Assembly (NCBI GenBank): GCA_943736015.1
Contig: OX031063.1
Span: forward strand, 4,259,001-4,323,000
Reading direction: 5' to 3'
DNA length: 64,000 nt
Source of the DNA: Tridacna crocea
Taxonomy: Eukaryota; Mollusca; Bivalvia; Cardiida; Cardiidae
Shown: positions 3,830 to 62,205 of the stretch, piece after piece
Numbering within the stretch: position 1 is the stretch's first letter
How the letters are laid out: each line of letters begins with the position of its first letter
Notes under the pieces: model-generated
The model's database searches: none
The model's input: the letters and a program-made list of their open reading frames with translations, nothing else
Told to the model about the DNA's origin: nothing
Made by a program: the position numbers and the translations under genes

Positions 3830-4077
3830 TTAACTCTTTACCATACGACAAAATATTAAACAGGTCCAAACTGAAATAGCTTGCAGACGACAAAATAAAG
3901 TTACATATTTCAAAAATTGAAATTTTTTTCCAGCAGAGTAAAACACTGTGTTAACAAGAGAATATGCTGGTTACTAGGTTACTTTCTACTAGGTAGCTGG
4001 TTACTTTCTTACAATGTCTTTAAAAGTCTGCTGTCTTCGGGGTCGTAAAAATTATGGATTGATTGGTAAAGGGTTAA
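3830..4077 (+). mobile_element. Diverged family-A MITE
   Basis: TTAACTCTTTACCATACGAC at the left, GGTAAAGGGTTAA at the right, with L-module GCTTGCAGACGACAAAATAA. The central palindrome is degraded and interrupted by a short CTAGGTTACTTTCTA duplication. Confidence 0.7.
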
Positions 4078-4139
4078 ATATAAATCCCACACATTGGGCA
4101 CAAGTTCTGGTTAAGTTCACAGGGAGCAGTATCCGAATT

Positions 4140-4420
4140 TGAATTTTGCTTTGAATTTGGTCTGGTCCAAAATTTGCCGTCTGGGAAAGGGTTAAATTGT
4201 TACCAAACATCAAATTTATTGACTCAACCGAATTGAAAGCAATTAGAGTCAACAAATTAAATTTAACTTGCATGTTTGGACTTGTTTTTGATGGGTAAAA
4301 AATATTGTAGATAAAGGAGAAAATGCTGGTCAGCAACATTTCTCTTTTATCTATAATGTTTTCTAAAGTTTTTTTCTATCTTTACAAGGGTCGTAAAAAC
4401 AAAAGATGTCTCTCAGTAGC
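4140..4420. mobile_element. MITE fragments (end piece and hairpin core)
   Basis: 4140-4196 is a reverse L end (GGTCTGGTCCAAAATTTGCC ... GGGAAAGGGTTAA). 4290-4400 is a decayed hairpin (ATTGTAGATAAAGGAGAAAA, ATGCTGGTCAGCAACATT, TATAATGTTTTCTAAAG) with the R tail GGGTCGTAAAAAC. Confidence 0.55.
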
Positions 4421-5251
4421 CTGTTTAGAAGACAGAGTATGGAGAGGAACAGGGAAATATCCACAAATCAGAAATGTAAAGATACAATTCAAATTCTTTT
4501 TGAAAATGATAACTAGTAAGTTGTCAAATCATTTTTAAGAGTGAAATTCTAAGAGAAGAAGTGTACGGGATAAAAGCTGTAACATGGGTTTACTGTCACA
4601 AACAAACATTACAGAGTAAAGGGGTGAGATATGCAAATGTTATGTAACCATTTCCTGTATTGTTTCAACTGGCCGGTGATGGATTAACATTTATGACCAT
4701 GACTAGGGGTAGCCAGATACTGACTTCACCCTTTACCATGCAAACCCTAGGTCTAGTTTCCAATACCCAAAGAAAAGAGTGTTTGAAAAACAGTGTGGGA
4801 AGAAAAAGATGTTTACTGTTTAAGGGCAAATCCTAATATATTTTGACCATACTGTTTTTTACTCCAATCAGCTGCAAATATTTTTGGTTCACAATTCTTT
4901 TGTTGTCTGCAAATGCTTTCAATTTGAACCAGTCTAAAGTTTTTGTGTTTGGTGAATGGTCACTTGACCCTTTGTTTTTTACAACCCTGAGACAGAAGCC
5001 TTTTGAAAACATTGTGGAAAGGGAAGAAAAAGCTGAAACACTTGAAAGTTAACATCATTTGAACAATCCAGACTTTGGTACTTCCAAAATCTATGTTATG
5101 ACTTTGGATGAATATGTTGTTGTTGCCTTTGAAAACATTGTGAGGAAAAGAGAAAATGCTAAGATTTTCTCCTTTTCCCATAATGTTTTCCATCCTTTCC
5201 AAATCAAATTTTATTTCAACTTTTTGATTACCATTTTTTGTCATGTGCAAA

Positions 5252-5477
5252 TTAACCCTTTACCAAACAATCCCTGGTTTTTACAACCCTGAGATGGAAG
5301 CCTTTTTAAAACATTGTGGGAAAAGGAGAGAATGCTGGTAACCAACATTTTCTTCTTATCCTACAATGTTTTCTATCCTGGTGGAAACAAATTTCAATAT
5401 TTCAGTTAGGTTTACTTTGTTTGCAAGTGCTTTTAATTTGGACCATTCTAAAATTTTGTCTCTTGGTAAAGGGTTAA
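5252..5477 (-). mobile_element. Family-A MITE inside the THAP element
   Basis: TTAACCCTTTACCAAACAAT at the left and TTGGTAAAGGGTTAA at the right. R module first (CCCTGGTTTTTACAACCC). Hairpin imperfect (ACCAACATTTTCTTCTTATC). It interrupts the transposon downstream of the THAP ORF. Confidence 0.85.
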
Positions 5478-5524
5478 ATGTTGAAAACATTTGGGGAAAA
5501 AAAGGGAGAAAACGGCACCAATTT

Positions 5525-5953
5525 CTACTTTGTCCAGAATGTAGATCTAGAAAAGGATAAAATATTACGAAAAACAATTAAAGGAATTACCGACCTTATG
5601 TTTGTTTTTCTTTTTGGAGATTGCCATTGCGGAATGTCGGTCTTATGGCCTATCTTATTTCGACTCGGAGTTTCGGACAATGTCGGCACAGCATCAGGTT
5701 TTAATCGCAGCCTAATATTCCTATAACCAACTTCTTTTACGAGTTTTGGACTTATTAAGAACTGACTGTCCTCGAAGTGTTTCAAACACAATTTGGAATG
5801 AACTGATGTCACAAAATCCTCCGTTACTGACCGGCCCCGGTTTAAACGTTGAATCCATAGTTTCCTCCTTTTTAATTCCTTCGGAAATTTGAACATACTA
5901 ATTCTATGTGTTCCTGATTCGACGTTGAAGCCATAGGCTGCACAATTTACCAT
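5525..5953 (-). pseudogene. THAP zinc-finger transposase fragment
   Basis: 142-codon ORF. THAP hallmarks: N-terminal CAAYG, FKFPKE, LWIQRLNR, KLCLKHFED (the C-x2-H pair) and DAVPTL, in the right order over about 95 residues. The second zinc ligand expected in CAAYGC is Phe (CAAYGF), so the finger is probably dead. No catalytic domain follows; after the THAP domain the frame soon ends. It sits inside the terminal repeats of the 4820-6268 element in minus orientation, so a transposon origin is more likely than a host THAP gene. Confidence 0.7.
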
Positions 5954-6622
5954 TTTTTCGGCTGAATTCTACGTTTATACTTAGATATCTGCGTATAATC
6001 ATCAGCGTTTGTACTTATTTCTACTGACTGTAAACACAGGCTTACGCGACTATGACGTCACACAGGTACGGAAGATAAGCGAATCAGGGGAAGTAAGCCA
6101 TGCACCATTTTTGGGGCCGTATATCAGCGTGACAATTCGAGCGTGATTTATGGCATGTTACAGAGTGGTATTTATGAAAACTGATGGACACGTGTTTACT
6201 AACATCATTTGCAGCTGATTGGAGCAAAAAAACAGTATGGTAAAAAAATCTTAGGATTTGCCCTTTAAGTGTAGTACCATACAAAGTATAAGTTACCACA
6301 GTTGTCTTGCAGGTCATGTTCTTCGAAGCTTAGACCTACATGTATATTATTTGATGCATCACCCATCCTCCCTATGCCAGGGTGTGTTAAAAAAAATGAA
6401 GCCAAACTGAAACATTCAAATATTTCTCTATCATGAGGTTTAATTGAATATACTTTTAGTCCTTTAGATGAGTTACCTGACGGTTAATAGGCATGCAAAG
6501 TTTCGTTGTGATATCTTAATCTAGTAAAAAGATCTTTTAACAAAACACCCCAAAAATGTCCCAAGTGTGCGGCTTTTGCGAGACATTTTAACAAAAGCCT
6601 GAATTTCAAGCCTGAATTACAC

Positions 6623-6851
6623 TTAACCCATTACCACACGAGAATAATTTAGACTGGTCCAAATTGAAAGCGTTTGCAGACGACAAAATAAAAGTGACTG
6701 AAAAATTGGAATTTGTTCTGGGAAGGGTAGAAAACACTGTGGGAAAAGGAGAAAATGCTGGTTACCAGCATTTTCTCCTTTTCCCACAGGGTTTTCAAAA
6801 GGCTTCTTTCTCAGGGGCGTCAAAAGTAGGGATTGAGTGGTAATGGGTTAA
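6623..6851 (+). mobile_element. Family-A MITE, full length 229 bp
   Basis: TTAACCCATTACCACACGAG to GGTAATGGGTTAA. Central palindrome ATGCTGGTTACCAGCAT with full arms; R module TTCTTTCTCAGGGGCGTC. Confidence 0.92.
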
Positions 6852-7749: not shown

Positions 7750-8016
7750 TTAACCCATTACCACACAATCCCTACTTTTGACGACCCTAAGGAAGAAGCC
7801 TTTAGAAAACATTGTTGGAAAAGGAGAACATTCTGGTAACCGGCATTTTCTGTTACCAGCATTTTCTCCTTTCCCACAATGTTTTCTATTCTTTACAATT
7901 CAAATTTCAAACTTTCAGTCACTTTTATTTTGTCATCTGCAAATGCTTTCGATTTGGACATAATTATCTAGAATTTTGTTGTTGGGTAAAATTTTGTCGT
8001 TTGGTAAAGACTTTAA
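7750..8016 (-). mobile_element. Family-A MITE, left member of a tandem pair
   Basis: TTAACCCATTACCACACAAT, R module first, then a hairpin with a small duplication at its centre (CCGGCATTTTCTGTTACCAG). The L end is extended (GGTAAAATTTTGTCGTTTGG). The terminal TTAA at 8013 is also the start of the next element. Confidence 0.85.
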
Positions 8017-8240
8017 CTCATTACCAAACAACAATATTTCAGGTTTGTCCAAAACAAAAGCATTTGCAGACGACAAAATAAAAGTGACTGAAAATTTGAA
8101 ATTTGAATTGTAAAGAGTAGAAAACATTGTGGGAAAGGAGAAAATGCTGATTACCAGCATTTTCTCCTTTTCCCACAATGTTTTCTAAAGGCTTCTTTCT
8201 CAGGGTCGTGAAAAGTAGGGATTGTGTGGTAATCGGTTAA
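8013..8240 (+). mobile_element. Family-A MITE, right member of a tandem pair
   Basis: TTAACTCATTACCAAACAAC to GTGTGGTAATCGGTTAA, complete hairpin (ATGCTGATTACCAGCAT). Shares TTAA 8013-8016 with its left neighbour, in opposite orientation. Confidence 0.9.
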
Positions 8241-12699: not shown

Positions 12700-12928
12700 T
12701 TAACCCTTTACCGCATAATCCCGACTTTAAACGACCCTGTAAAAGAAGCCTTTTGAAAACATTGTGGGAAAAGAAGAAAATGCTGGTAACCAGCATTTTC
12801 TTCTTTTCCCACAATGTTTTCTACCCATCCCAAAACAAATTTCAATTCTTCCGTCACCTTTGTTTTGTCGTCTGCAAAAGCCTTCGGTTTGGACCAGTCT
12901 AGAATATTGTCGTTTGGTAAAGAGTTAA
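12700..12928 (-). mobile_element. Family-A MITE, full length 229 bp
   Basis: TTAACCCTTTACCGCATAAT to GTTTGGTAAAGAGTTAA. Perfect hairpin with AAGAAG in place of AAGGAG on both arms (compensated change). Confidence 0.92.
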
Positions 12929-13785: not shown

Positions 13786-13962
13786 TTAACTTTCTACCAA
13801 ACAATCACTGGTTTTTACGACCCTGAGATGGGAGCCTTTTCGCACAATGTTTTCTTCCCTGCAAGGAAACAAATTTTGCTTTTTGAGTAGCATTAATTTT
13901 GTCGTCTGCAAATGCTTTGAATTTGGACCAGTCTAAAATTTTGTTGTTTGGGAAAGGGTTAA
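13786..13962 (-). mobile_element. Family-A MITE deletion derivative, 177 bp
   Basis: TTAACTTTCTACCAAACAAT to GTTTGGGAAAGGGTTAA. The left arm and loop are gone: GGGAGCCTTTTCGCACAATG joins R directly to the right arm. Confidence 0.85.
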
Positions 13963-15372: not shown

Positions 15373-15601
15373 TTAACCCTTTACCCCATAAGGCATTTCT
15401 ATGGCATCTGTAATTGACCCTAAATGACAGCAAGGATGAAGCCGTTTCTTATGTGTACATGACACATTTTGATAGCATATAAAACATTGTGACAAAAGGT
15501 GAAATTTCTTGTCGTGAGCAATTTTACCTTTTGCCACAATGTTTTCCAAAGGTTCCTACAAGCAATGTGTAGAAATGAGTATCTATGGAGTAAAGGGTTA
15601 A
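15373..15601 (+). mobile_element. Family-B MITE, 229 bp
   Basis: TTAACCCTTTACCCCATAAG to TGGAGTAAAGGGTTAA. Subtermini AAGGCATTTCTATGGCATCT and TTGACCCTAAATGACAGCAA differ completely from family A. Hairpin arm ATTGTGACAAAAGGTGAAAT. Confidence 0.93.
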
Positions 15602-22200: not shown

Positions 22201-25200
22201 GCCACCAGCAGTTTGTTATCTTCCCCTTCCACTTTCTGTATCAACTTCTGTACTTGCTCCCCTATCCAGTCAATCAAACCAAGTTCATTTAATGCCTGAA
22301 ATGAAGGCAAAGTAGTTTAACTTCTAGCTCCTGTCATGACTATAGTTACCTTTGCGGACAAGGTAGATCAAAGATCAGACTGCACAAAGCATGCAGTCTG
22401 ATATCTACACTGTCCACTTTGCTAAGACATTTGGCACAAAAGCAGCTTTCAAACTGCAATTATTTTGGTTCTATCTCTAGACTTATAGTTTGTCCTAATG
22501 TATTCTGCATACTCATGGTAAACTCTTAATAAGACAACAAAACTTAGGTTTTATTTAGATTGAAAGGATTTATAGACCAGAAATCAAATGTGTTTCAAAT
22601 GATTGAATTGATCTTTGAGAAGTGTCTCAAATGATTGTATTTGCCTTTCAAAGACTGTCTGATACAATTAGACGTCTTTCAAGGGATGTCTTAACTGACT
22701 GAATTTATCTTTGAATGGTGTCTGAAATGACTGTATCTGTCTTTCAAGGGAGTCTGAAATGATTGGATTTGTCTCTGTAGTAGCGTCTGATATGATTAGA
22801 TTTGTTTTTCAAAGGAGTCTGAAATGATTGTATTTGTCTTTCAAGGAAGTCTGAAATGGTTGTACATTGTATTTGTCTTTCTTTTGAATCTAAATTGATT
22901 GTATTTGTCTTTGACAGGGTGTCTGAAATGATTTGATTTTTCTTTCAAATGGTGTCTGAAATGGATTTGATTTTCCTTTCAGAGTTTGTCTGAAATGATC
23001 TGATTTTTCTTTCAAAGGGTGTCTGAAATGATTTGAATTTTGTCAAAGGGTGTCTGAAATGATTTGATTTGCCATTGAATGAGTGTCTGAAATGATTTTT
23101 TTTTTTTTCAAAGTATGACTGAAACAATTTGATTTTTCTTTCAAAGCATGTCAGAAATGATTTGATTTTTCTGTCAAAAAGGCGTCTGAAACGATTTGAT
23201 TTTTCTTTCAAGGGCCATCCAAACTGATTTGATTTGCTTTTCAAAGTATGTCTGAAATGATTTGATTTGTCTTTTGATAGGTGTCTGGACTGATTCAATT
23301 TTTCTCTCAAAGGTTGTCAAAAATGATTTTTTTTTTTCCCAAAGGGTATCTGAAATGATTTTATTTCCCTGTATGTGGGCGACTGAAATGATTTGAATTG
23401 CCTTTCAAAGTATGTCTGAAGTGTTTCAGTTTTTTTTTCTTTCAAAAGGTGTCTGAAATCATTTGATTTTTTTTTTCAAAGGGTGTCAGGAATTATTTGA
23501 TTTGCCTTTCAATGTGTGCCTGAAATAATTTAATTTTCCTTTCAATGGGGGTCTGAAATGATTTGATTTGCCTTTCAATGGTTGTCTGAAATGATTCGAT
23601 TTATCTTTCAATTCGTGTCTTAACCCATTACCACACAATCCCTACTTTTGACAACCCTGAAAAAGAAGCCGTTAGAAAAGATTGTGGGAAAAGGAGAAAA
23701 TGCTGGTAACCAGCATTTTCTCCTTTTCCCACAATCTTTTCTACCCTTCACAAAACAAATTTCAAATTTCCAGTTACTTTTATTTTGTCAACAGCTAATG
23801 CTTTTTATTTGGACAAGCCTAAAATATTGTTGTTTGGTAATGAGTCAAATGATGGGATTCGTCTGATAACTGATGACTGAAATAATCCCTTCAATTTTCT
23901 TTCAATTGGTGTCTGAAATGATTGGACTTGTCTTTCAAAGGATGTCTGCAATGATTAAATTTGTTGTTCAAAGGGTGTCCTGGGTCCAAAAAATCTCAGA
24001 ATTCTTACTTGTCCTCCTTCCATTTTGCACTTGTCCTACAGTTAGACAAAGAAGGATAATCCATGTGTCCTTACCAAATTTCAAATGGTAAGGATGAGCA
24101 GACGAGTGGATTTTTTGGACCCTGGTGTCGGAAATGATTGGAATAAGATGTGGATAAAATGCTGGGTAGACAGTATTTTCTCCTTTCCGAATGTTTTTAA
24201 AAACCTTATGTTCAAAGGGCGTTAACACAACTGAAATTTTTAGTGAACAGTAACATGGTGTATATATTTGATTCAAAGTTTGGGAAAAGGGGCTTGATGC
24301 ATTTCCAGGATCCAATACACCAAACAAGTCATCTCATGATTAACTCTTTACCCAACCCCAAAATTTTGGACCAGTCCAAATTGAAAGCATTTGCAGATGA
24401 CAAAATAAATGTGAATCAAAAATTAAAATTTGATTTGGAAAGGGTAGAAAACTTTGTGGGAAAAGGAGAAAATGCTGGTTTCCACTATTTTCTCCTTTTC
24501 CCACAATCTTTTCAAAGGCTTTCTTCCTCAGGGTCGTTAAAAGTCGGGATTGTGTGGTAAAGGGTTAATGATCAACAATTTTGTCCAAAAACCAGCTTGA
24601 TCATGAGGTAGAATGGTCCTTTGAATTCCAGAGGCCCTGTGTTTGAACCTTAATTACTGTAGACAATAGGTTTTTTTGTGGGAGCGCCCTTGAGCAACAC
24701 ACTTCAGAATTCTAACCAAGTGAAACCCAAGACGTATACTAGTATATGAACATGTTAACTGGTTCAGTGATATTTTTGAAATAATGTTGAAAGTGGTGCA
24801 AAATGCCATTCAGTCTTTCAAATAATCAGTCAATCTCTTTTTGTGTGATGATCCATGACTGACTGAGAAATTTGTCTTCAATGGAAAAATTAATCTGAGC
24901 CATGCAGTGGCAAAAAGGAGTTTAACCTTTTACCAAACAACAAAATTTTGGACAAGTCCAAATTGATAGCATATGCAGATGACAAAATAAATTTGAATCA
25001 AAAATTGAAATTTGATTTGAAAAGGGTAGAAAAGATTGTGGGAAAAGGAGAAAATGCTGGTTATCAGCATTTTCTCCTTTTCCCACAATCTTTTCAACAT
25101 CTTTCTTTCTCAGGATCCTTAAAAGTTGGAATTGTGTGGTAAAGGGTTAAAAAATCTCTGTGATGCATGATGCCAAACAAATCCTCACACAATTATTCTG

Positions 25201-28200: not shown

Positions 28201-31200
28201 ACAATAAATAATCCACGAGAGCAATAGCCTGAGTGGTTTATTCTTTGCACCTCATAACTCACACCATGGTTTATTGAACGATAAACCAAGACAGAAAGAA
28301 GATTATTTCAATTCTAACATGGCCAGTTCTTAATGAACAGAAAACAAGTTCAAACTTGGAGTAAAAATGCGGCTGAGGATTATGTTCCATTGAATAATCC
28401 ACACACTGAATGACGTCACTCGATATAGAATGACGTCACTCTACATGGACTGTCACAGATTTTACCACACTTTCCTTGCACTGTCTTTATAAAGCCGAAT
28501 TTGCATGTCATGTTAGAATGAAAGATAAACCACAATAGAAAGAAGAAAACTTCTTAAGCAAACCATGCTCTGAGAAAACGAAGCTTAATGCATTTGCGAA
28601 AAGTATCGACCCATGTCAGGCTATGAGGTCTGCGCAGCCTGACATGGGGTGAAACTTTCCGCTATCTTAACCCTTTACCCAATAGAGCATTTCTACAGCA
28701 TCACTATTTGACCCTAAATAACATTAAGGATGAAGCCGTTTCTTCTGTATATATGACACCTTTTGATAGCATAGAAAACATTGTGACAAAAGGTGAAATT
28801 GCTCGTCACGAGCAATTTCACCTTTTGCCACAATGTTTTCCAAAGGCTCCTACAAGCATTGCCTAGAAATGAGTATCTATGGAGAAAAGGGTTAATATTT
28901 TCTGTGTCAAAGGACCAGTCTACCTCATGATTCAGTTGGTTGTTTGACAAGATGGATTTTATAGATCCATAATCAGGTGATGGTTTCCTAGATATAATGC
29001 ATAATGGGGATGTATTAACCCATTACCACTCAATCCCTACTTTTGACGCCCCTGAGAAAGAAGCCCTAAGAAAACATTGTGGGAAAAGGAGAAAATGCTG
29101 GTAACCAGCATTTTCTCCTTTTCCCACAATGTTTTCTACCTTTCACAAAACAAATTTCAAATATTTTAGTCATTTTTATTTTGTCGTCTGCAAATGCTTT
29201 CAATTTGGACAAGCCTAAAATATTGTTGTTTGGTAGTGTGTTAAGCCCCCTATTGCCAAAGCATGGCAAAAACATATGTTGTGCACTACATTTTGGCTAG
29301 TGTGGCATATAGTGCTTTTTGTTTCTTGGGTAGTTGTACGGGAGGGGAATATTTGGACATGAAAGTGTAGCTTTCATGATGAAAAGATCTTGATCTGCCT
29401 AATCATTAATTCCAAAGAAAGAGACTCCATTAATAATATCTAATACAGTTTTAAATTTTTTTTCTGCAGGCAGATACCTTGTTACAAGTTACAGGGGTAA
29501 CAACCTACGTCATAGCATACGTCATCGGAGACATTTTAAATCCGCCATTTTCGTTTTAAAAAGGTTTTCAGCTTGTACATTATTGTTTTTGAAGATCTGT
29601 CCAAACAAAGCAGTGCATATGGTACCTGACAACTTTTTTCCTTGGTATACATTAATATTTTGTTCATTAGTTTCGTTGTTTTGCAATTACTTCCACACAA
29701 TTTTCGAAGCCGGTGACACAAGTGCGATTTAAAAATAGATGTCGAATACAATGCCGTTAAGAATAATTGTGTTAAAGTATTTAGAGCTACAACATTGTTT
29801 CATGGCATTTTGATTTCACGAATAGGATAAATATATTTACCATCACCAGATGAAGTAGGTATTCTATGTAAATTTTCGATACATATATCTTTTTAAAGTA
29901 ATTAATCTGCACTTTGCGCACAAAATGGCGGCTATTCCGACACCTCTGATATGACATAGGTTGTCATCCTTGAAGTTATATCACAATACGCTTCAATATT
30001 TAACCCTTTACTCCATAGATACTCATTTCTACGCAATGCTTGTAGGAGCCTTTGGAAAACATTGTGGCAAAAGGTGAAATTGCTCGTGACGAGCAATTTC
30101 ACCTTTTGTCACAATGTTTTCTATGCTATCAAAAGGTGTCATATACCCATAAAAAACGGCTTCATCCTTGCTGTTATTTATGGTCAATTAGAGGTACCAT
30201 AGAAATGCTCTATGGAGTAAAGGGTTAACGTTTTCTTTGATACACACTGCTAAGCACTTAAATATGAACATAATTTTTAAATAAAATAGGTAAAACTTTT
30301 TAACAACATTAAAATTATATGCTCTGTATTATGATATTATGAATCACCCTGTATATCTGGGAAAAAAATGTAGTCTGTTTCAATTCAGGCTGTCCATAGA
30401 CCTTGAAAATTTGATTCTGGGTAAGGCAAGTAGATAAGGTGGAATTGGTGGAGGGCAGGATTCTGAATGGAATTTTAACTTACCCAGACCCACATGCATT
30501 TCGGTGATAAAAGAGTGGAGGAAGAAGGACAAAATCACTATCAACAAGACTACTCCACTTTTTACCAACAGACTTTTATTGGTGATCCGATACTACAAAA
30601 GGATTGATGATATCATAAGAATAGGCAAACCCTTTGATCCTGACCTTTAACCCTTTCCCAAACAAGCCCTTGTTTTTACGTGTCTGCAGTACAAGTCTTT
30701 TGAAAACACTGTGGGAAAAGGAGAAATTGCTCATAACGAGCAATTTCTCCTTTTCCCACAGTGTTTTGTACCCATTTGGAGAACTGTCTGCCACTTTCAT
30801 CAAATTTGAAATTGTCGCCTGCAAACCCTTTGATTTTGGAAGAGTTTAAAATTTGTCGTTTGGGAAAGGGTTAATCCTCAGACAGTGGGCTTTTGAAACA
30901 TTGTGGGATAAAGGAAAAAATGCTGGTAACCAGCATTCTCTCTGTTTTTCTCACAATGTTTTCTGATCTCTTATAAAGAAATCCTACCGTTTCAGACACA
31001 TTTAATCGTTGGTCTTTTGAAAACATTGTGGGAAAAAGAAGAAAATGCTGGTAACCAGCATTTTCTCCTTTTTCCACATTGTCTTCTGATCTTTCACAAA
31101 GAAATCTGACTGTTTCAGACACATTTAGTTTGTTGTCTTCAAATGCTATCAGATTACATCAGTCTGAAATATTTTCAAGCTGTAAAGACTTAACCAATCA

Positions 31201-37200: not shown

Positions 37201-40200
37201 AGTTAGGAATACAATAAATAGGATTTATAATCAACTTAATGTGTGTGATATTAAATATCTGTCATTAGAATGGGGTTTGGAGTGGTTAAAAAACTTCTCC
37301 TTTGGTCTTATTTCTTCTATCGCATCTCATCCCATTCTCATGACAGATTTTCAATGACACACACAACCTGTTGATTATTCTCTATCTTCTGAATGTGATA
37401 ACTTACCTGATGGTGACTGGGGTGAGAAGCAGTATGGTTGTCACATTGTCAAGGAAAGCTGACACGACAGCGCTGAATACACATAACAATGTGATCAGCG
37501 GCCATACCTGGCCTTTAGCTAATCTGTATGCCTAAAATAAAATCTATTTGTTTTACATTGATTAAGAAACAATTCATACAATTTATTATGTTTCTTGATT
37601 CTGCTTCCTGGGAACTACACCAGTACTCGCCCCAAATGTGTTGGTCAATGAAAAATCCCAAAGTTGACAACCGCTCCCAGGTATCAAACTCAGGACATCA
37701 TGGTTACCAGGCCGACGCTCTATCTCATTCCCATGGACACTACTTGTACTGCTTAGAATACTTAAGCTGTATCAGATGTTTTTGGTGACAGTACAGAACA
37801 AGTACATGTTGCATATTTTCAAAATTTAAACACATGAACCATACTCTGCCAAAAGGAGGTTTAATGCATTATGATACATTGTACCCAGCAATTCATTTTT
37901 CTAAGAACAAACTCAATCCTAAAGTAGAATGATCCTTTGACATGCAGACAGTGAACTAATAGCAAGGTCGGCCTGCTTGGATTGCACAGGCTGACCCCAG
38001 TTGTTACTTTTTGCAGATGCATTAAACCCCCTTTTCAGAGAACATGGCTCATTTAGTGTGCTCTTTTTTTGGCATTTTTGTGATACATGTTTCTACAAAT
38101 CATACCAACTCTTTGCCACACCATCATGACTTTTAACCCTTAACTCTTTACCAAACGACAAAATTTTAGACTGGTCCAAATTGAAAGCATTTGCAGACAA
38201 CAAAATAAAGATGACTGAAAAATTGAAATTTGTTCTGGGAAGGGTAAAAAACACTGTGGGAAAAGGAGAAAATGCTGGTTACCAGCATTTTCTCCTTTTC
38301 CCATAGTGTTTTCAAAAGGCTTCTTTCTCGGGGGCGTCAAAAGTAGGGATTGTGTGGTAATGGGTTAACCATGCAATACTTACTATTGAAGACCCTGAGA
38401 AAACATTGAGGGAAAAAGAGAAAGTGCTAGTAACCAGCATTTTCTCCTTTTCCCACAATGTTTTTTAAAAGACTTCTTTCGTAGGGGGGTTAAAGTAGGG
38501 ACTGTGTGGTAAAGGGTTTAACCTATAAATGACATGGGAGGCTGACAATTAAACCCTTCTACCACTGCCTTTCATGACCATATTTCTTTGGCGAAAAAGG
38601 TAAAAGAACTCAGTCAAAACTAAAATTAACTGACCTGTAACGCGCAATAGTCAAAGAATCCTGTCTCGGAGAAAATGGCCACGATAATCATCATTCCAAA
38701 CAAAAGTGACAACGTCTCCACGTCTAGCCAGGTTAGAATCTTTTCAAGGGTTGGTCTCTACGTAAACAAAAATACAAACTTCTTAATTCTTTCTCTGCTA
38801 ACTCTTTGCCACACATTCCTGTCTTTTAACGACCCTGAGAAAGAAGCCCTTAGAAAACACTTTGGGAAAAGTAGAAAATGCTGGTAACCGGCATTTTCTC
38901 CTTTTCCCATGATATTTTCCACCCTATCAAAGTCAGAAGTCATCATATTGACACGATTGAATTTTGTCTGCACATGCTTTGAATTTGGTCCAGTCCAAAA
39001 ATTTGTCCTTTGGTAAAGAGTTAAACTTAGTATCAGTAGTATTTACATACTGTAAATGAAGATCAGACTGAACATAATTTACCAGGTGATCTTGGTTTTT
39101 GACCGAGATTAAGTGTGTGTTTGAATATATTTGCACAAACTGTAAGCCATTACATGTTGTAACCAGCATTTTCCCCTTACCCCCCCTATGTTTTCTATCC
39201 TGAAAAAGAAAAACTCTGTGTTTTCGAGTAATTTTTAGTTTGCTGTCTGCAGTTGCTTTCAATTTGGACACATCCAAATTTTATTGTAAGGTAAAGAGTT
39301 AAAATTATAGCTTTCTACTTACCATTCCAAATGCTGAGAGCACTGCAACTGCTGCTAGTGAGCCTAACATGGCTGCTAGAGTTCTATGGACCAACTGAAA
39401 AATTACAGAGAAAATGTGAGATAAAAACCTTCCCCATTTAGACTGCTGAATTAAACACTCAACCAAATTGAAAGCATTTGCAGGTGACAGATTAAATGTT
39501 ACTCAGAACAAGAAATCTGCTTTTCAAAACAAAGAAAATATTGTGGGAAAAGGAAAAAATGCTAGTTATCAGCATTTTTCCCAAAATGTTTTCAAAGGGC
39601 ATTTTCCTTTGGATACTTAACCATTTACCCCATAAGGCATTTCTATGTTATCTCTAATTGACCCTAAATAACAGCAAGGATGAAGCCATTTTTTATGTGT
39701 ATATGACACCTTTTGATAGCATAGAAAACATTGTGGCAAAAGGTGAAATTGCTCGTGAGCAATTTCACCTTTTGCCACAATGTTTTCCAAAGGCTCCTAC
39801 AAGCAATGCGTAGAAATGAGTATCTATGGAGTAAAGGGTAAAAACTCGGGATTGCATGGTACTTAGTTAAAATACTGCAAATCTTCGCTGATTATATAAA
39901 TCACTACATTAAAGGTGTCCGTCGTTGTGAGTTAGAGCGTCTGCCTCGAAACCAATAAGGTCCCGAGTTCAATACCCTAAAGCAGGTTTCAACTTTGAGA
40001 TTTTTCACTGGCCCACGCATTCGACGCAAGAACTGGTGTAGTTCCCAGGAAGCAGAATTGAGAGAGATTAGTATAAGCTGTAAGAACTTGTTTCTCAATA
40101 GATGTAAAATAAATATGTTTAAACTAAATTAAATTTTTAAGTACCTCAAAGATTATCAGTGCATACACAAGGACCAGAACAATAGCAGCACATATTTCTC

Positions 40201-43200
40201 TCCGCCCCGGGCTTGTAGTAAAGACATAATGGTAGCTTATAGGCACACACTCATTGTTGTCATTGACCATCAGTCCACCATTTGACTCCCAGATAAATGT
40301 AATGTTCACATCCTTCTGACTCCTTTACCAAACGACAAAATTTTAGACTGGTTCTAATTGAAAGCACTTGCGGACAAAAAAATAAATGTAACTCAAAAAC
40401 TAAAATTTGTTTCCAACAGGGTAACAAACATTGTGGGAAAAAGGAGAAAAAATGCTGGTTACCAGCATTTTCTCCTTTTTCCACAATATTTTCAAAAGGC
40501 TTCTATCTCAGGGTCGTAAAAACCAGGGATTGTTTGGTAAAGGGTTCAAATACAACAAAATTAACTCTTTACTAAACAGCATAACTTTAGACTAGTCTAA
40601 ATTGGAAGCATTTGCAGACGACAAAATTCATGTGACTCAAACATCAGATTTTTTTTTTGGGGGGGGGGGGGGGTCGGGAAGAAAACGTTCTGGGAAAAGG
40701 TAAAATGCTGGTTTCAGAAGGCTTCTTTTGCAGGGTTGTGAAAACCAGGTACTGTTTGGTAAAGAAAACATTGTGGGAAAAGGGGAAAATGCTAGTTACC
40801 AGCATTTTCTCCTTTTCCCACCATGTTTTCAGAAGGCTTCTTTTGCAGTGTTGCAAAACCAGGGATTGTTTGGTAAAGGGTTTATTAGTTACCATATGAC
40901 AAAAGTTGAGGCTTGTACATAATGAAAGTATTTGGAGATGAAAAGTTAACCCTTTACTCCATAGATACTCATTTCTACGCATTGCTTGTAGGAGCATTTG
41001 GAAAACATTGTGGCAAAAGGTAAAATTGCTTGTGACAAGCAATTTCAACTTTTGTTACAATGTTTTCTATGCTATCAAAAGGTGTCATATATACACATAA
41101 GAAACTGCTTCATCCTTGCTGTTATTCAGGGTCAATTAGAGATGCCATAGAAATGCCTAACGGGATAAAGGGTTAAATATATTTCATATGATGGCCATTG
41201 TCCCTGAGAGAGTAGTTGATGCTGATCACAATCATTGTGACAGGATTCATTCTTTTCCCATTGCTGACCACTGTTTCCACATTGTTTTGTGGGAAAGTAA
41301 CCAGTGACTTGGAAAGAATCTGTGTGGAGTGCTGGTAAAAAGAGACGCCAGAAAAGCATGGATAGGTGTACTGGCTATAACTGAAATAATGTTGAAAATG
41401 GCGTTAAATGCAATACAACCAATCAATCATTTAAAAAAAGTATTAACTATTCAGGGACAAGGAGAAAATGTCAAATACCAGCATCTACTCCTTTTCTCAC
41501 AATGTTTTCAAAGGCCTTCTTATCCAGGATTGTTTGTAAATGGTAAATCAAGAAATCCTTTCAACAGAGTCACAAAATTACAAGGATGTCGAAAGCGGTC
41601 CGGCCGGTCCAAATTTTTGGCCAAAATGAAAAATGGCCGGACCAATTTTCGAAAAAAAAAAAAAAAAATGCGTAATATAAACCTCAAAAAATGCGCCAAA
41701 ACGCACCAGAGAGCGTCTTATTTTCAAAATATTTCCGGGGGAGCATGCCCCGACCCCCCTAGCATGGCTTAAAAGCGTAATATAAACCTCAAAAAAATGC
41801 GCCAGAATGCACCAGAGAGGGTCTTATTTTTTAAAGAATGCACCAGAGAGCGTTTTATTTTCAAATTTTTTCAGGGGAGCATCCCCCGGGCCCCCTAGCA
41901 TGGCTTCGCGACTTTGTCGCTCATCACACTGGCCAGACGAAATGAAATTTCCTTCTGATGGGCCTGAATTAAACAAGAAAAATTTGGGAACTATCATTAC
42001 AAATATAACGGAATGGCTTTTTTTCCTACTCTGCTTTCATAATTATCCAACAAGGACCTACTCCTATCCTTCACCTATTTTTTGCCCTTGTATAGCCATT
42101 ACTACTTGACAGCGGTCTTGAATATAAACTATATGCGTAACTTTATGATTAACCTTTTACCCCTTCCCTGGCCCCTCCCTTTTAACTCTTACCAAACAAG
42201 CCCTGGTTTTCCAGACCCTGGGAAGAAAAGTTTTTGAAAACCTTGTGGAAAAAGGACAAAATGCTGGTTACCAGCATTTTTCCGATTCCTACAAGTTTTT
42301 CGATCCTTTCAGAGACAAATTTCATAAAATGGGATGACATGTTTATTTTGTCCTCTGTAAATGCTTTTCATACGGACTAGTCTAACATTTTGTCATTTTG
42401 TTATTTAGTAAAGAGTTCAGGGCCCATATTCTCCAACCATTCTTAAGAATATTCTTTGTCTTATTCTCCAGAATTTTCTATACTTGAAAGTAACACAGTT
42501 TCTTTTCTCAACCAGGAAGAGTTGACACTTGAAAATCTTCAATATGTGATCAATATATGTGCAAAGTTTCAATACAATTGAAGCCAAAATGTAGGAGGAG
42601 TTTGTGACACAAAATTACAGGTATTTTGTACAAAGATAGACAGTTGGACGCACGAATGGTAAGACACACGGACAGGCATGCTGATTCCAGGATAAACCAG
42701 AAAACATTCGCGGGGTTATAAAAAAAAAAGAAGTACGTGTCTAGGTCACTCATATCTACACTGATCTTCTTCTGCACTGTTGAATGATTGGCCAACAAAT
42801 CATTGGAAACAAACAGCCTGTCTGTCTGCAAAACAAGGTTAACCCTTTACTCCATAGATACTTATTTCTACCCATTGCTTGTAAGAGCCTTTTGAAAACA
42901 TTGTGGCAAAAGGTGAAATTGCTCATGACGAGCAATTTCACCTTTTGTCACTATGTTTTCTATGTTATCAAAAGGTGTCATATACACATAAGAAATGGCT
43001 TCATCCTTGCTGTTATTTAGGGTCAATTAGAGATACCATAGAAATGCCTTATGGGGTAAAGGGTTAAGAAAAACTAACAGTATAAACAGATATATGCCAC
43101 AATTTTGACAATATGAATAAAACATAATGTAAATATGAATGAAACATATTCCATATCACCATAAAAATGCTGATTGATATTTTGTGAGCCTTATATTGAA

Positions 43201-46200: not shown

Positions 46201-49200
46201 GTCCAAATCAAAAGCATTTGCAGACGACAAAATAGAAGTGACTGAAAATTTGAAATTTGTTTATTTGAAGAGAAGAAAACATTGTAGGAAAAGGAGAAAA
46301 TGCTGGTTATCAGCATTTTCTCCATTTCCGACAATGTTTTCTAAAGGCCTCTTTCTAAGGGTTGTCAAAAGTAGAGATTGTTTGACAATGGGTTAATAAA
46401 TTAGATAAATCTTTCAATCAGATAGTTAAACCTTGATTGATGTTATATTAAACTTTTTTATATATATATATAAAAAATATCTCCTTATCAGACAGTGTAG
46501 ATCCGAGATCAGACCGCACATTCTGTGCAGTCTGATCTTGATCAACATTGTCAGCAGAGAGACAGTGAGTTGCACTTAGTAGTTTAACCAAACAATCCCT
46601 GGTTTTTACGTCCTTGAGATAGAAGCCTTTTGAAACATTGTGGGAAAAGGAGGAAATGCAGGTAACCAGTATTTTCTCCTTTTCCCACCATGTTTTCTAC
46701 CCTGCTGGAAACAAGTTTCAATTTTTGAGTTATGTTTATTTTGTCATCTGCAAGTGCTTTGAATTTGGACCAGTCTAAAATTTTGTTGTTTGGTAAAGAG
46801 TTAAGGGGTGATATGTAATCTGCAAATGCTTTCAGTTGGAACACATCTAAAATTTTGTTACTTGGTGGACTGCAAATGCTTTCGGTTTTGAGAAATCTAA
46901 ATTTTTGTCAGTAAAGGATGAATGTAATAAGTGTACACTGAACAATCCCAAGTTTTAATAACCCAAATGTAACAGACCTTTGAAAACATTGTGGAAAAAG
47001 GGGCAGATGCTGGTAAACAGCATTTTCTACAATTCCCACAAAATTTTCCATTTTCCCAAAACAAATTTCAATCTTTGAGTCCCATTTTTCTTTTGTCCTC
47101 TACAAATGCCTTCAATTTGGACACTTCTAAAATTCAGCTATTTAGTGAAAGGTTTAATCTCAGATTTTTTTTGTCTTTAAACACAAGTAAAATATATATG
47201 ATGTAAGGGATTGAATAGCACAAGAGATTTATCATTTTTTAACCCTTTACCACACTGCAGAATTTTAGACCTATCCAATTTGAAAGCATTTGTATGCAAT
47301 AATTTCATAGTGGCTCAAATGATGCAATTTTTCTTTGATAGAGTAGAAAACTTCGTGGGACAAGGAGAAAATGCTGGTTACCAGCATTTTCTCCATTTCC
47401 CAAAAAGTTTTCAAATGCCTCTTCCTCAGGGGTGTTAAAAGTTGTCATTGTGTGGTAAAGAGTTAAAACCAGAAACAACAACAAGTATTGCTTGGAAAGC
47501 CTACGAAACATGTGAAAGGCATTTTCTATCTGGCATAATCTGTTCTATTATGCAGCCATCAGGGGCAATATTTGGCATGATGATACAAGAATGATTATAG
47601 TTTCATAAACTAAGGATGAAATGGGTTAAAATCTGACTAATAACTGTCTGAAAAACAAGTAAAGATGTCTCTGTAACTCTACCACACAAGAAAATTTTAG
47701 ACCGATCCAAATTGAGAGCATTTGCAGACGACAAAATAAAGGTGACTGAAAAATTGAAATTTGTTCTGGGAAGGGTAGAAAACACTGTGGGAAAAGGAGA
47801 AAATGCTGGTTTCCAGCATTTTCTCCTTTTCCTACAGTGTTTTCAAAAGGCTTCTTTCTTAGGGGCGTCAAAAGTAGGGATTGTGTGGTAATGGGTTAAC
47901 TCTTTACCACACAAGAAAATTTTAGACTTGTCCAGATTGAAAAGCATTTGCAGACAACAAAATAAATGTGACTAAAAAATTGAAATTTGTTTTGGGAATT
48001 TTAGAAAACTTTGTGGGAAAAGGAGAAAATGCTGGTTATCAGCATTTTATCCTATTCCCATAATGTTTCCAAAAGGCCTCTTTCTCAGGGTTGTCAAAAG
48101 TGGGAATGGTTTAGTAATGGGTTAAGCTTTCTGATGATTCAGACATTATTAGTTGTACAGTCAGGTGGCAGGGGACTTGTAAACTTGTTCACGGCTGTGG
48201 TGAGTCATGTTGCCCGAACCTGAGCCTTCTCCTTGGGAGTCACATGATTCACCACAGCCGTGAATAAGTTTCCAAGTCCCCTACTACCTGAGAGTAGAAC
48301 AAATTTATTATACTGCAAAGTTTTACCATTCCAACGTTTGTTAAGCGAAATTTTACCTGTTTTTTGGTTTAAAAAATTGAGTACAAACACAGGAATTTGA
48401 CATTCTATAACCAAAATAAATGATAACACATGAAAAAAAAATCTCCCCTATATAATATAAACACAAGGAATGCAACGTCTCGATTGCTGGCACTAGCACC
48501 CGACAGCCTTTCCCAACCAAAATCACCCACGAAACAAACATTGATCATAATCTCATTTAGCCTAGCGATAGACAAGACAATAATGTACCTGCATCATCCT
48601 GCGATACCTCAGTAGACACCTTTCAACCAGAGATATCCGTCATGTTTTACAGCTCTATCAGGACATTTTGATTTATCCGGGACTCTATTCGCGTTCCTTG
48701 TGTTTATATTATATAGGGGAGATTTTTTTTTTTCATGTTTTATCATTTATTTTGGTTATAGAATGTCAAATTCCTGTGGTACAAAGTAGAATTATCCTTC
48801 TGAATGCCCCAATTCGATGAAAAATGACGTCACTGGGAACTGATGTCACTGAAACCTTGGTAATACATGCTAAAACCTGCAGCTTGGCACATAAACTTGA
48901 TGTCAATCTTGATTGCATCCACCATTTTGGATGTTGTGTTGATAGAGTGTATTCATATATGCAGGGTCCCGAAAGGGAAACTGCTTTTACCGGTATGTTG
49001 GTTTTGCCAGTGTACTTGACATTTATGTTCCGGGCATATTATCCAATTAGATCAGAAGAAATTTCTTTGCAGTACATTAAAATCATGAATCACCTTGTGG
49101 CTTCTATACTGTACTTACAACACTGAGAAATGCTGCGATACAAAGAATGCCAACTTTAAGTTGTCGAAGGTAGACATTTTTGTTCTTCAACAAATTGGTT

Positions 49201-58128: not shown

Positions 58129-58257
58129 TGCATCTCTATGATACATGATACAAAGCATGCCAGGCTGCCAGCACATAATTTGGGATCCATAGTAGCTTTT
58201 TTTTTGAGAGTCAACTTCACCCTTAGGCTGCTAAGCCGGGACTCACTGACCTTTTGG

Positions 58258-58328: not shown

Positions 58329-58524
58329 AATATTATTCCCCAATACCTATCTATTTGGGTTTTCATGACTGAATTGAAAATTTTATTTTAGTTATTTAGC
58401 AGGATAAGGGTTAATCATAAGGTAGAATGGTCTTTAGACATACACAAAATTGACAAACAGCGAAAGTTTCCATTTTTCGCAGACACATTATGACCCTTTT
58501 TACAAAACATGGTTCAAACCTACA

Positions 58525-58752
58525 TTAACCCTTTCCCAAACAAGCCCTGTTTTTTACGTGTCTGCAGTACAAGTCTTTAGAAAACACTGTGGAAAAAGGA
58601 GAAATTGCTCGTAACGAGCAATTTCTCCTTTTTCCACAGTCTTTTCTAGCCTATCGGAAAACTTTCTGCCATTCTCATCAAATTTAAAATTGTCATCTGC
58701 AAACACTTTGAGCTTGGAACAAACTAAAATTTGTCATTTGGGAAAGGGTTAA
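58525..58752 (-). mobile_element. Family-C MITE, left of a C-A tandem
   Basis: TTAACCCTTTCCCAAACAAG to ATTTGGGAAAGGGTTAA. Both arms carry the compensated change GTGGAAAAAGG / CCTTTTTCCAC. Confidence 0.94.
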
Positions 58753-58975
58753 CCCTTTACCAAACAATCCCTGGTTTTTACGGGTCTGGAATAGTAGCCT
58801 TTTGAAAACATTATGGGAAAAGGAGAAAATGCTGGTAACCAGCATTTTCTCCTTTTCCCACAATGTTTTCTATCCTATCATAGACAGAAGTCGTCTTTAC
58901 AGCAAGAGTTGAATTGTCATCTGCAAATGCTTTCAATTTGGTCTAGTTCAAGTTTGTTGTTTGGGAAAGGGTTAA
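58749..58975 (-). mobile_element. Family-A MITE, right of a C-A tandem
   Basis: TTAACCCTTTACCAAACAAT to GTTTGGGAAAGGGTTAA. TGGAATAGTAGCC subtype. TTAA 58749 is shared with the family-C copy. Confidence 0.93.
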
Positions 58976-58989
58976 ACCTTCACAAAATA

Positions 58990-59350: not shown

Positions 59351-59361
59351 TATATCATATG

Positions 59362-59660
59362 ATAAACCCTTTCCCAAATGATTCTGTGGCAAATTGCAAA
59401 ATTACAATTTTTCCATTTGTTATAATGTTTTTCTACCAAAGTAGAGCACTTAAGCTCATTTGTACCAGTTCCAAATTCGCCGTATGCAGCTGCTTTCCAT
59501 TTGGAACCATCCAATATTTGCTGTTTGGGAAAAGGTCAAATAATGATCTACATGGTAACCAGCATTTTCTCCTTTTCCCACAATGTTTTCTACCCTTACC
59601 AAAACAAGTTTCCATTTTTTTGTCACATTTATTTTGTTGTCTGCAAATGCTTTCATTTTC
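59362..59660. mobile_element. Two MITE remnants
   Basis: 59362-59540: CCCTTTCCCAAATGATTCTG ... TTTGCTGTTTGGGAAAAGGT without hairpin. 59545-59660: GGTAACCAGCATTTTCTCCT right half with L end TTGTTGTCTGCAAATGCTTT. Confidence 0.6.
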
Positions 59661-59716
59661 GAGGGGAAAGGATTTTGTTTGCTTCCATCCTGTCTGATTT
59701 ATTTTCTTCACAAACT

Positions 59717-59977
59717 TTAACTCTTTACTAAATGACAAAATTTTACACTGGTCCAAATTGAAAGTATTTGCAGACAACAAAATGAATCTGATTAAAGAGA
59801 TGAAATTTGTTTTGGAAGAGAAGAACACATTGTACTTACCAGCATTTTCTCCTTTTCCCACAATGTTTTCTACCCTTACCAAAACAAATTTTCCATTTTT
59901 CAGTCACACTTATTTTGTATTCTGCAAATGCTTTCAATTTGGTCTGGTCCAAAATTTTATGTTTAGTAAAGAGTTAA
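59717..59977. mobile_element. LL-type hybrid MITE
   Basis: TTAACTCTTTACTAAATGAC with L module at the left, and at the right the inverse L module (TTCTGCAAATGCTTTCAATT, GGTCTGGTCCAAAATTTTAT) to AGTAAAGAGTTAA. No R module; left arm shortened. Confidence 0.8.
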
Positions 59978-59979
59978 AA

Positions 59980-61100: not shown

Positions 61101-61104
61101 TTTT

Positions 61105-61327
61105 AGTTCAACTCACACGAGAACGACTTGTCCAAATCAAAAGGATTCGCAGACAACAACTTAATTCTGGTTAAAATGACAGAATTTGTATGATAGGCTA
61201 GAAAACATAGCGAGAAAACGAGACAATGCTGTTTCTTGTATTTTCTCTTTTTTCCACAATGTTTTCAAACAGACTTTTTCCTCGGTTTGCTAAATGCGAA
61301 AACTCGAAATTGTCTGCTAAAGAGTTA
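61105..61327 (+). mobile_element. Diverged family-A MITE
   Basis: TTCAACTCACACGAGAACGA, L module CAAATCAAAAGGATTCGCAG, loop ATGCTGTTTCTTGTAT, R end GTCTGCTAAAGAGTTAA. Confidence 0.75.
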
Positions 61328-61544
61328 ATAGACTAGTCTTCAAAAATAGTAAAAATCCGAAATGTAGCAAGTGTCATTTTCTAAGTTTTTTAAGTCTTTG
61401 GATTTCAAACTCATTGTAGATCTACATGTATGCTTTTAATTAAATGTGTTCGTACTGATGACTAGAATCTATATGGGCAGAAAAAGGACATGTAGTATAC
61501 ATATATAAAGTCATTGCCAACAAGTTTTCTAATTCTATACAAAC

Positions 61545-61770
61545 CATAACGTGGGTCGACTCTTAACGATCCCGAAAAAGAAGGTTTTTAAAAACAGTGT
61601 GGGAAAAGAATAAAATGCTGGTAACCAGCATTTTTTTCTTTTCCCACAATGTTTTCTACCTTTTGAAAGACAAATTTAAAAAAAAATTGAATAACATTTC
61701 AAATGTCATTTGCAACTTTATGCTTTCGATGTCGACATGTCTTAAATTTTCTTGTTTTGAAGAGAATTAA
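61545..61770 (-). mobile_element. Family-A MITE, ends decayed
   Basis: CGTGGGTCGACTCTTAACGA, hairpin ATGCTGGTAACCAGCAT with arms GTGGGAAAAGAATAAA / TTTTTTTCTTTTCCCAC, right end GAAGAGAATTAA. Confidence 0.8.
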
Positions 61771-61784
61771 CTCGTTACCTGATG

Positions 61785-61975
61785 CAGGCCCGTAGGAACA
61801 GGGGGTGGGGGGGATGGGGGGGGGAGGGGGTAAGCCCCCCCGAATGATTTTGACAATCATGGTAATTCAAATTACCCTTTCTCGCGGATAGTTTCAATCG
61901 ACGCGAAATTTTCCATAAAATACGAGTTAGCACCCCCCCCCCCCCCATCTTGAATTGCTTCCTACGTCCCTGTGA
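61785..61975. repeat. G-run / C-run palindromic repeat
   Basis: GCCCGTAGGAACAGGGGGTG and a run of G clusters at 61800-61830, with a C(14) tract near 61935 and CTTCCTACGTCCCTGTGATG at the end, an inverse of the start. The G clusters could form a quadruplex. Confidence 0.65.
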
Positions 61976-61984
61976 TGGTCACAT

Positions 61985-62205
61985 TTTATATTTATCTATA
62001 CTGAAAGCATTTGCAGATGACAAATTATGATAGATGTATATCAAATGACAGGATTGTCTTTGAAGTGTAGTAAACGTTATGGAAAAGGAGAAACTGTTGG
62101 TTACCAGCACTGTCTTCTTTTCCCGCAATGATTTTGCGATTTTCACGCTTCTTTCTCTTGGTTATCAGAGCTAAAAAACTCAGACTTGTTTGGTAAAGAG
62201 TTATA
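61985..62205 (+). mobile_element. Diverged family-A MITE
   Basis: ACTGAAAGCATTTGCAGATG, loop CTGTTGGTTACCAGCAC, R end TTGTTTGGTAAAGAGTTA. Confidence 0.7.

Follow-up and report, generated by a model that had tools for sequence, protein, structure and literature searches.

Roughly a sixth of the Tridacna crocea genome consists of copies and pieces of a single MITE, and a long palindrome inside this element has apparently retained its symmetry and changed little as the remainder of the element drifted. A standard copy is 229 bp long, is bounded by TTAA, and has short terminal repeats tipped with CCC and a zero-spacer palindrome of 67 bp with one central base (positions 108 to 174 of the 229-position model), in agreement with the 60 to 70 bp put forward in the original prediction. 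The element is short, carries terminal inverted repeats, occurs in high copy number, and is homogeneous in length, as is usual for MITEs; its kind is known, and what is unusual is its abundance together with the conserved internal palindrome. Long zero-spacer palindromes are usually considered unstable. Contrary to this view, the consensus palindrome is present letter-perfect at 26,428 places in this one genome.

To count the copies, we ran a profile search (nhmmer) over the 64-kb window (the whole stretch of DNA analyzed), which detected 120 copies or pieces covering 21,586 bp, of which 67 had a length of 200 bp or more; the same profile gave zero matches on base-shuffled sequence. The swarm had been recognized earlier, but the number given for it, 80 to 90 copies or pieces, was an undercount. 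Matches to TTAACCCTTTACC with up to two mismatches numbered 135 in the window versus 2.4 expected from shuffles, and matches to the arm motif AACATTGTGGGAAAAGGAG with up to three mismatches numbered 148 versus 0.04 expected. The swarm is not local to the window, since the MITE was present in 24 of 28 spots of 10 kb from the 1.05-Gb genome. These spots contained 273 pieces, and the mean share of sequence occupied was 17.7% (SE 3.0), or 18.4% (SE 3.1) when two tandem-array spots with the MITE inside (L004 and L023) were excluded. By extrapolation, about a million pieces are present genome-wide. The modal length of the 116 end-to-end copies from the window and the spots was 229 bp (48 copies), and the 12 commonest lengths ranged from 223 to 236 bp, compared with the 226 to 232 bp given earlier for full copies. 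The terminal variants CCCTTTACC, CCCATTACC, CTCTTTACC, and CCCTTTCCC were seen, and the tips of copies read CCCTT, CCCAT, and also CTCTT.

The copies in the window referred to below, which include members of subfamilies S1 and S4 and of a second family, F2, are as follows.

2619-2689 and 2706-2772, the two MITE pieces outside the main region (nhmmer)
3830..62203, no strand, region with 118 of the 120 copies or pieces (nhmmer)
6623..6851, plus strand, full S4 copy with mirrored pair 7
8013..8240, plus strand, full copy
12700..12928, minus strand, full copy with a mirrored G>A pair 19 (12774/12802) not in the nearest copies; its final TTAA is common to a partial copy that begins at 12925
12755..12821, minus strand, 67-bp palindrome of the preceding copy, with the mirrored pair as its sole departure from consensus
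13787..13962, minus strand, copy without most of the palindrome (model positions 128-175 missing)
15373..15601, plus strand, full F2 copy
23620..23848, minus strand, full copy with a mirrored C>G pair 5 not in the nearest copies
24922..25150, plus strand, full copy with a mirrored C>G pair 5 (25034/25090)
25029..25095, plus strand, 67-bp palindrome of the preceding copy, with one mirrored pair and one uncompensated change at 25064
28667..28895, plus strand, full F2 copy within a dispersed repeat, whose uninterrupted paralogue is L013:5171-5367
30000..30228, minus strand, full F2 copy
32835..33063, minus strand, full copy sharing a terminal TTAA with the next
33060..33288, minus strand, full copy, head to tail with the preceding one via one TTAA
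36113..36341, minus strand, full copy, TTTCCC-tipped (S3-like), palindrome identical to consensus
38140..38368, plus strand, full 229-bp S4 copy in reference orientation, with the inherited mirrored T>C pair 7
42839..43067, minus strand, full F2 copy
47896..48125, plus strand, full copy joined by one TTAA to 47677-47899
58525..58752, minus strand, full S1 copy; its palindrome (58580-58646) departs from the S4 consensus by four mirrored pairs plus a single uncompensated change
58749..58975, minus strand, full copy joined by one TTAA to the preceding one
59717..59977, no strand, compound bounded by TTAA, in which two left halves stand in inverted order and are alike at 100 of 130 bases

The element was very probably moved by piggyBac-type mobilization, as had been predicted. 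TTAA was found at both ends of 97 of the 116 end-to-end copies (under a looser end criterion, 97 of 186 near-complete copies), and neighboring copies were linked through a single common TTAA. Four alignments, involving three copies, crossed the uninterrupted junction of a paralogous repeat with the flanks joined by one TTAA; in one of the four (L007:8053-8263 versus L024:2743-2819), the TTAA is intact in the target itself. The CCCTT and CCCAT tips represent the CCC-type terminal motif of the piggyBac superfamily: in a published survey, CCCTT is given as the most conserved tip motif and CCCAT as another of four (PMC10813416). The piggyBac DDE domain had 118 matches in the genome, many within open frames. 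Seven of these loci were fetched, and ends were read in five: four loci represent one family ending in CCCTTTATATAC (both ends read in three, only the left in one), and one locus ends in CCCTTGTCATGC/CCCTAGTCATGC. Open-frame piggyBac elements are resident in the genome, but a transposase with exact CCCTTTACC ends was so far not found at the 7 of 118 matches examined, where the nearest ends were CCCTTTATATAC. With other piggyBac-superfamily MITEs, the element shares the TTAA target, CCCTT/CCCAT tips, short terminal repeats, the lack of an ORF, and many copies; unlike them, it has a 67-bp palindrome conserved across subfamilies, occupies ~18% of the genome, and has no identical-ended partner among those 7 of 118 loci.

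TTAA is also duplicated by Kolobok elements, and a THAP-domain ORF (Pfam THAP match, E 9.4e-14) adjoins a MITE copy at 5525-5965. Kolobok-type mobilization is nevertheless hardly credible on terminal dinucleotides, and we disfavored this assignment: Kolobok ends are RR, AG in ten full-length Xenopus elements described in PMC6004289, whereas copies of the MITE end in CC or CT. The Xenopus T2-MITE, a Kolobok family, resembles our element in its TTAA target and in being a long-lived family with subfamilies but has a terminal AGGRR (PMC6004289) instead of CCCTT.

The palindrome has changed little across subfamilies. The consensus palindromes of S2, S3, and S4 were identical at 67 of 67 positions, and their flanks were alike at 72 to 75 of 94 positions on the left and 27 to 37 of 42 on the right. 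Between F2 and S4, 57 of 67 palindrome positions were kept and the flanks matched at 47 of 94 and 23 of 42 (raw counts); the palindromes differ by four mirrored pairs, one one-sided change, and the central base. S1 differs from S4 by three mirrored pairs only. Within S4, the largest subfamily (83 copies), rare variants were equally dense in the palindrome (94 on 67 sites) and in the flanks (139 on 126 sites), while variants present in at least 10% of copies numbered 2 in the palindrome versus 43 in the flanks (Fisher p 5.8e-7). A similar contrast between rare and common variants was observed in S3 (p 0.005); it was not significant in S2 (p 0.11), S1 (p 0.60), or F2 (p 0.69). Rare variants were thinner per site in the palindrome than in the flanks in F2 (0.29 versus 0.66), S1 (0.27 versus 0.72), and S3 (0.64 versus 1.05), which source constraint alone does not explain.

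Compensated changes between the arms, as described in the original prediction, are real. In 216 copies, 65 mirrored changes were observed versus 8 to 25 in 12 shifted pairings, a count that excludes three lineage pairs (7, 25, and 30) and the L004 array. Relative to the consensus of each copy's own subfamily, there were 41 mirrored changes versus 3 to 9, with the inherited S4 pair 7 accounting for 9 of these changes; in the F2 family alone, no mirrored excess was detected (4 observed versus 8.4 expected). Only palindrome-covering copies were used throughout (290 of 393 matches in the subfamily consensus comparison and 241 of 326 in the analysis that included the within-F2 test). The three compensated sites named earlier all exist, but none of the coordinate pairs was exact. 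For 25051/25083, the changed pair is 25034/25090, and for 12774/12806, it is 12774/12802; for 58592/58627, the palindrome at 58580-58646 contains 58587/58639, 58593/58633, 58605/58621, and 58610/58616, of which three (pairs 7, 25, and 30) belong to the whole subfamily. Two of these three palindromes also contain one uncompensated change.

Mirrored changes above chance would be expected if the arms were converted one by the other, through template switching or cruciform repair in each copy, with the fold unselected. Several observations are consistent with such conversion. The mirrored pair at position 13 occurred 269 times genome-wide versus 63 times for a double change of the same type that was not mirrored, the expectation being ~100 if right-only copies are taken to equal the 1,627 left-only copies counted. 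Neighboring mirrored changes clustered within copies (8 near pairs versus 4.2 in permutations, p 0.019), and the central base changed T>A 20 times, T>C 10 times, and T>G 7 times. Maintenance of hairpin pairing by template switching is described in PMC8794818, where, as here, paired arm changes, some of them clustered, and a possible inversion of the center are reported; those cases come from RNA genes, whereas ours are spread over a great number of copies of a single DNA element in one genome. However, one-sided changes exceeded mirrored ones by over ten to one on terminal branches of a tree (581 versus 39), and the conversion rate is therefore low. Mirrored excess per copy was also flat when binned by one-sided count. 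Conversion couples changes in the arms without holding the arms themselves, and by itself it leaves unexplained both the 2 versus 43 common variants of S4 and the persistence of the palindrome between families whose flanks have strongly diverged. Conversion alone is an unlikely explanation.

It is also very improbable that shared ancestry only, with a few old sources having different palindromes, accounts for all mirrored changes. Pairs 7, 25, and 30 are indeed inherited within lineages, and the excess of mirrored changes goes with flank divergence: in a regression of both factors jointly over 254 copies, it increased by 0.21 per 0.1 of flank divergence (interval 0.11 to 0.32) and did not follow the one-sided count (−0.17 per 5, interval −0.31 to −0.02), a result that also speaks for constraint on the palindrome. 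Yet many mirrored changes are missing from the six to eight copies with the most similar flanks, and, inherited or not, the sources still needed a paired change. When copies were binned by flank divergence, mirrored excess rose in step with one-sided changes. These bins look like postinsertion conversion; flank divergence also includes lineage divergence. The timing tests give a mixed picture and disagree among themselves. On branches with at least four copies (tree of 171 of 258 copies), 10 one-sided and 4 mirrored changes were found; lineages therefore do not change in pairs only, an idea that was abandoned after the tree was built. L004 and L023 were dropped from the regression, tree, clustering, one-sided-count bins, flank-divergence bins, and central-base counts, and neither was dropped from the within-F2 test; pairs 7, 25, and 30 were dropped from the clustering and one-sided-bin analysis, and pair 7 and the 4 of 258 copies without a subfamily were dropped from the flank-divergence bins and regression.

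A role at the RNA level, with the hairpin kept as an miRNA or siRNA precursor, a dsRNA decoy, or an editing substrate, is very unlikely. The stem has a strong predicted RNA fold (−85.7 kcal/mol, z −9.2, one copy), and the fold itself is the sole support for small-RNA and editing ideas in this analysis; the DNA fold of copy 36113..36341 is likewise strong (−67.6 kcal/mol, z −14.9). There is a precedent in the palindromic human MITE Made1, which gave rise to the mir-548 family (PMC1784062). However, where the palindromes of subfamilies differ, the changed positions form Watson-Crick pairs apart from a single F2 case that would read A-C from one strand and G-U from the opposite one, and the window had zero Rfam matches at cutoff, a search that an undescribed family would escape. 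The host gene named in the original prediction, OCA2, was not confirmed by Pfam, NCBIfam, or PDB searches; ORFs at 33750-34634 on the minus strand presumably resemble OCA2.

We consider it somewhat better than an even bet that the whole pattern is explained by a nonautonomous piggyBac-type MITE whose palindrome is constrained in source copies, with template switching contributing. Of the parts, such constraint in the sources is rather likely, and a contribution of template switching has an even chance. As between arm-to-arm conversion and selection, probably both acted, with constraint the larger part. In the mechanism that we propose, a TTAA-specific piggyBac transposase would move the MITE in trans, and the palindrome would be a working part, recognized or folded as DNA in mobilization. 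Source copies that retain the sequence and symmetry of the palindrome would be the ones that multiply, while dead copies would gather one-sided mutations freely. Template switching at the hairpin, in which one arm serves as the template for its partner, would bring part of the paired changes into source lineages, and paired changes would be retained because symmetry is restored. More tentatively, the 67-bp palindrome may be a conserved DNA module, a cruciform or a paired binding site, that drives amplification of a TTAA MITE and evolves largely by replacement of whole base pairs while the flanks drift, and that could be how this element came to number about a million pieces in a single genome.

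Palindromic DNA is also found in the ends of piggyBac and piggyBat, where two cysteine-rich domains of the transposase dimer bind it inside the ends (PMC11707139). Those palindromes are 19 bp in piggyBac and ~14 bp, imperfect, and within ~120 bp of one tip in piggyBat (PMC11707139), whereas the one described here is 67 bp, near-perfect, and at model positions 108-174 of 229. Made1 likewise is a MITE with a near-perfect hairpin transcript, our hairpin being known from DNA and a predicted fold; Made1 is, however, an 80-bp Hsmar-related element whose hairpin is formed by 37-bp terminal repeats (PMC1784062), while our hairpin lies apart from the short terminal repeats. A 27-base piece of the palindrome had zero matches in IMG/VR viral contigs and zero in GTDB prokaryote contigs, and no published description of the element was found among the matches listed in open-license PubMed Central literature.

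With thousands of sequenced copies in which one-sided and mirrored changes can be counted, the family offers a natural experiment, on a large scale, in how palindromes stay symmetric. It also provides a means of testing whether MITE multiplication is aided by an internal palindrome, a question that bears on why some MITEs become enormously numerous. Two compounds, at 59717-59977 and L026:2840-3130, were also considered as simple inverted duplications of half an element; this reading was rejected because the two halves agree at just 100 of 130 bases in the first and 102 of 148 in the second.

The terminal and arm motifs of the MITE occur in the window (G000:C8:4259001-4323000; assembly of 1,048,827,098 bp in 31 contigs) well over chance expectation. 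A profile search assigned 21,586 bp to the family in 120 pieces (49 on the plus and 71 on the minus strand). A length of 200 bp or more is reached by 67 pieces; base-shuffled sequence gave no matches. The standard 229-bp copy is organized as follows:

Whole copy: 13-bp terminal repeat including TTAA, 94-bp left flank, palindrome, 42-bp right flank, inverted terminal repeat
Positions 108-174: 67-bp palindrome

Head-to-tail neighbors share a single TTAA at junctions 33060, 47896, and 58749, and a partial copy at 12925 is joined likewise. In 28 10-kb stretches taken at arbitrary positions on 17 contigs, the MITE share averaged 17.7% (SE 3.0; range 0 to 56%), with 273 pieces detected and 4 stretches containing none. 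Arithmetic extrapolation puts the genome-wide total, with a wide error, near 185 Mb in roughly a million pieces. Exact matches to the consensus palindrome number 13,351 in forward and 13,077 in reverse orientation across the genome; the backwards version of this sequence does not occur at all. In two of the genome spots (L004 and L023), the unit of arrays with periods near 1.67 and 1.83 kb holds a MITE piece, and the MITE is thus now part of satellite-like DNA there.

TTAA flanks both sides of 97 of 116 end-to-end copies (97 of 186 with looser ends). An empty-site test covered 92 copies and yielded 505 passing rows; among the matches listed, the majority were MITE sequence against MITE. All four inspected alignments to non-MITE repeats (from three copies) continue across the insertion junction, with TTAA intact in one. 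The genome contains 118 piggyBac DDE domain matches, and element ends were readable at five of seven fetched loci. Four of these represent one family with tips CCCTTTATATAC (one by its left end alone), and the fifth ends CCCTTGTCATGC/CCCTAGTCATGC. The MITE tip, CCCTTTACC, has CCCTTTA in common with the CCCTTTATATAC-tipped family, though the tips are not identical. The original prediction of TTAA-type piggyBac movement was therefore supported by TTAA ends, junction-spanning paralogues, and tips of CCCTT and CCCAT, two of four motifs in extracts of a piggyBac survey (PMC10813416), and the MITE is very likely piggyBac-type. For Kolobok elements, an excerpted source gives the tips as RR (PMC6004289).

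One of these piggyBac elements, whose open frame spans 624 aa (C18:30428321), sits at a TTAA within a MITE copy (L030:829-911 plus L031:1036-1166); in DDE-domain score it ties with C3:66851558 and C4:69349889 and comes very close to C10:28376412. A 492-aa piggyBac-like frame at G000:C5:7868714-7869811, with the same or near-same score on five contigs, had no convincing TTAA-ended terminal repeats within ~1.5 kb of this copy.

Clustering of 105 full copies produced two clusters, of 87 and 18 copies; a stricter threshold split them into five groups of 53, 17, 10, 8, and 7 plus 10 singletons. The consensus palindromes of subfamilies S2, S3, and S4 are identical; their flanks differ. S1 differs from S4 at three mirrored pairs of the palindrome. 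The second family, F2, has raw flank identities to S4 of 47/94 and 23/42 and a palindrome matching at 57/67 positions; the differences comprise four mirrored pairs, the center base, and a single one-sided change. Arm-to-arm conversion acting alone would change both arms jointly, yet it would not keep the palindrome conserved from one family to another.

In S4, rare variants per site are 1.40 in the palindrome and 1.10 in the flanks, while common variants are 0.03 versus 0.34 (p = 5.8e-7). S3 points the same way (p = 0.005); the contrast was not significant in S2 (p = 0.11), S1, or F2. Palindromes therefore appear to have mutated normally after insertion, yet their mutations rarely spread via source copies. 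Against this, even rare variants are sparser in the palindrome in F2, S1, and S3, where it also diverges within subfamilies about half as much as the flanks do; reduced mutation or some form of correction may therefore play a part. The palindrome is probably a working part of the MITE at the DNA level: source copies that keep it would be favored by selection, and template switching could assist its upkeep. According to extracts of PMC11707139, piggyBac and piggyBat transposases bind palindromes inside the element ends that are shorter than the 67 bp of the MITE; by analogy with this binding, a similar role may be proposed for the MITE palindrome.

Compensated arm changes had been noted earlier, and they do exceed chance: once three lineage pairs had been removed along with the L004 array, 65 mirrored changes were counted versus 8 to 25 in twelve shifted pairings. 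Relative to own-subfamily consensus there were 41, including 9 of inherited pair 7 in S4 (shifted pairings, 3 to 9). Column frequencies predict 33.5 mirrored changes in family 1 (222 copies), where 112 were found; by this measure F2 (19 copies) showed no excess (4 versus 8.4). Among 19 copies exactly two changes off a perfect palindrome, 4 carry a mirrored change, one being pair 7. Genome-wide, G>A at position 13 is mirrored 269 times and left-only 1,627 times. If right-only changes equal left-only ones, ~100 are expected by chance, so mirrored changes are in excess, though the excess amounts to only ~5% of one-sided changes there. By our own derivation, copy-age variation alone (exponentially distributed ages) can lift the chance figure about twofold, making a non-mirrored control important; one such double (13 left, 19 right) has a raw count of 63.

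Evidence on when mirrored changes arise is mixed. Pair 7 is inherited in one lineage within S4, on a branch of 17 copies (support 0.946). A separate branch of 9 copies (support 0.989) shows a joint change of pairs 7, 25, and 30; many other mirrored changes are missing from the nearest copies by flank. Terminal branches of the tree carry 39 mirrored (shifted pairings, 3 to 13) versus 581 one-sided changes; for internal branches that comprise four or more copies, the counts are 4 (shifted pairings, 0) versus 10. When copies are binned by one-sided count, the mirrored excess stays level at 0.22 to 0.26 per copy. Binned by flank divergence, it climbs from 0.10 to 0.42, paralleling one-sided changes at ~6% of them. 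In joint regression, the excess tracks flank divergence, not one-sided count. Whole-arm conversion could imitate this result, but is countered by mirrored counts per copy that are mostly one (of 254 copies, 185 have none, 58 one, 6 two, and 5 three).

Stems fold strongly in one copy as RNA (z = -9.2) and in another as DNA (z = -14.9), as would be expected of any such palindrome. Individual examples suggest that the palindrome can be unstable in replication, since some copies carry an extra arm and others lack the palindrome:

L011:3965-4087: extra-arm copy, left extension
L012:6591-6715: extra-arm copy, left extension
L027:662-830: copy without palindrome
Window 13787-13962: copy without palindrome

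At the palindrome center (258 copies from the window and genome spots; 208 T, 13 gapped), raw counts are 20 T>A, 10 T>C, and 7 T>G, a T>A predominance that hairpin-tip inversion would give.

The window also contains the following:

5525-5965, minus strand: THAP-domain ORF (Pfam E = 9.4e-14), either a host gene exon or a transposase relic, adjoining the MITE copy at 5252-5477
22622-23611: degenerate 33-bp repeat, ~30 copies, minus-strand frame partly open
53216-54006: 263-bp unit, three in tandem, 94% matches
62462-64000: minisatellite array of 39-bp and 78-bp repeats, running to the window end
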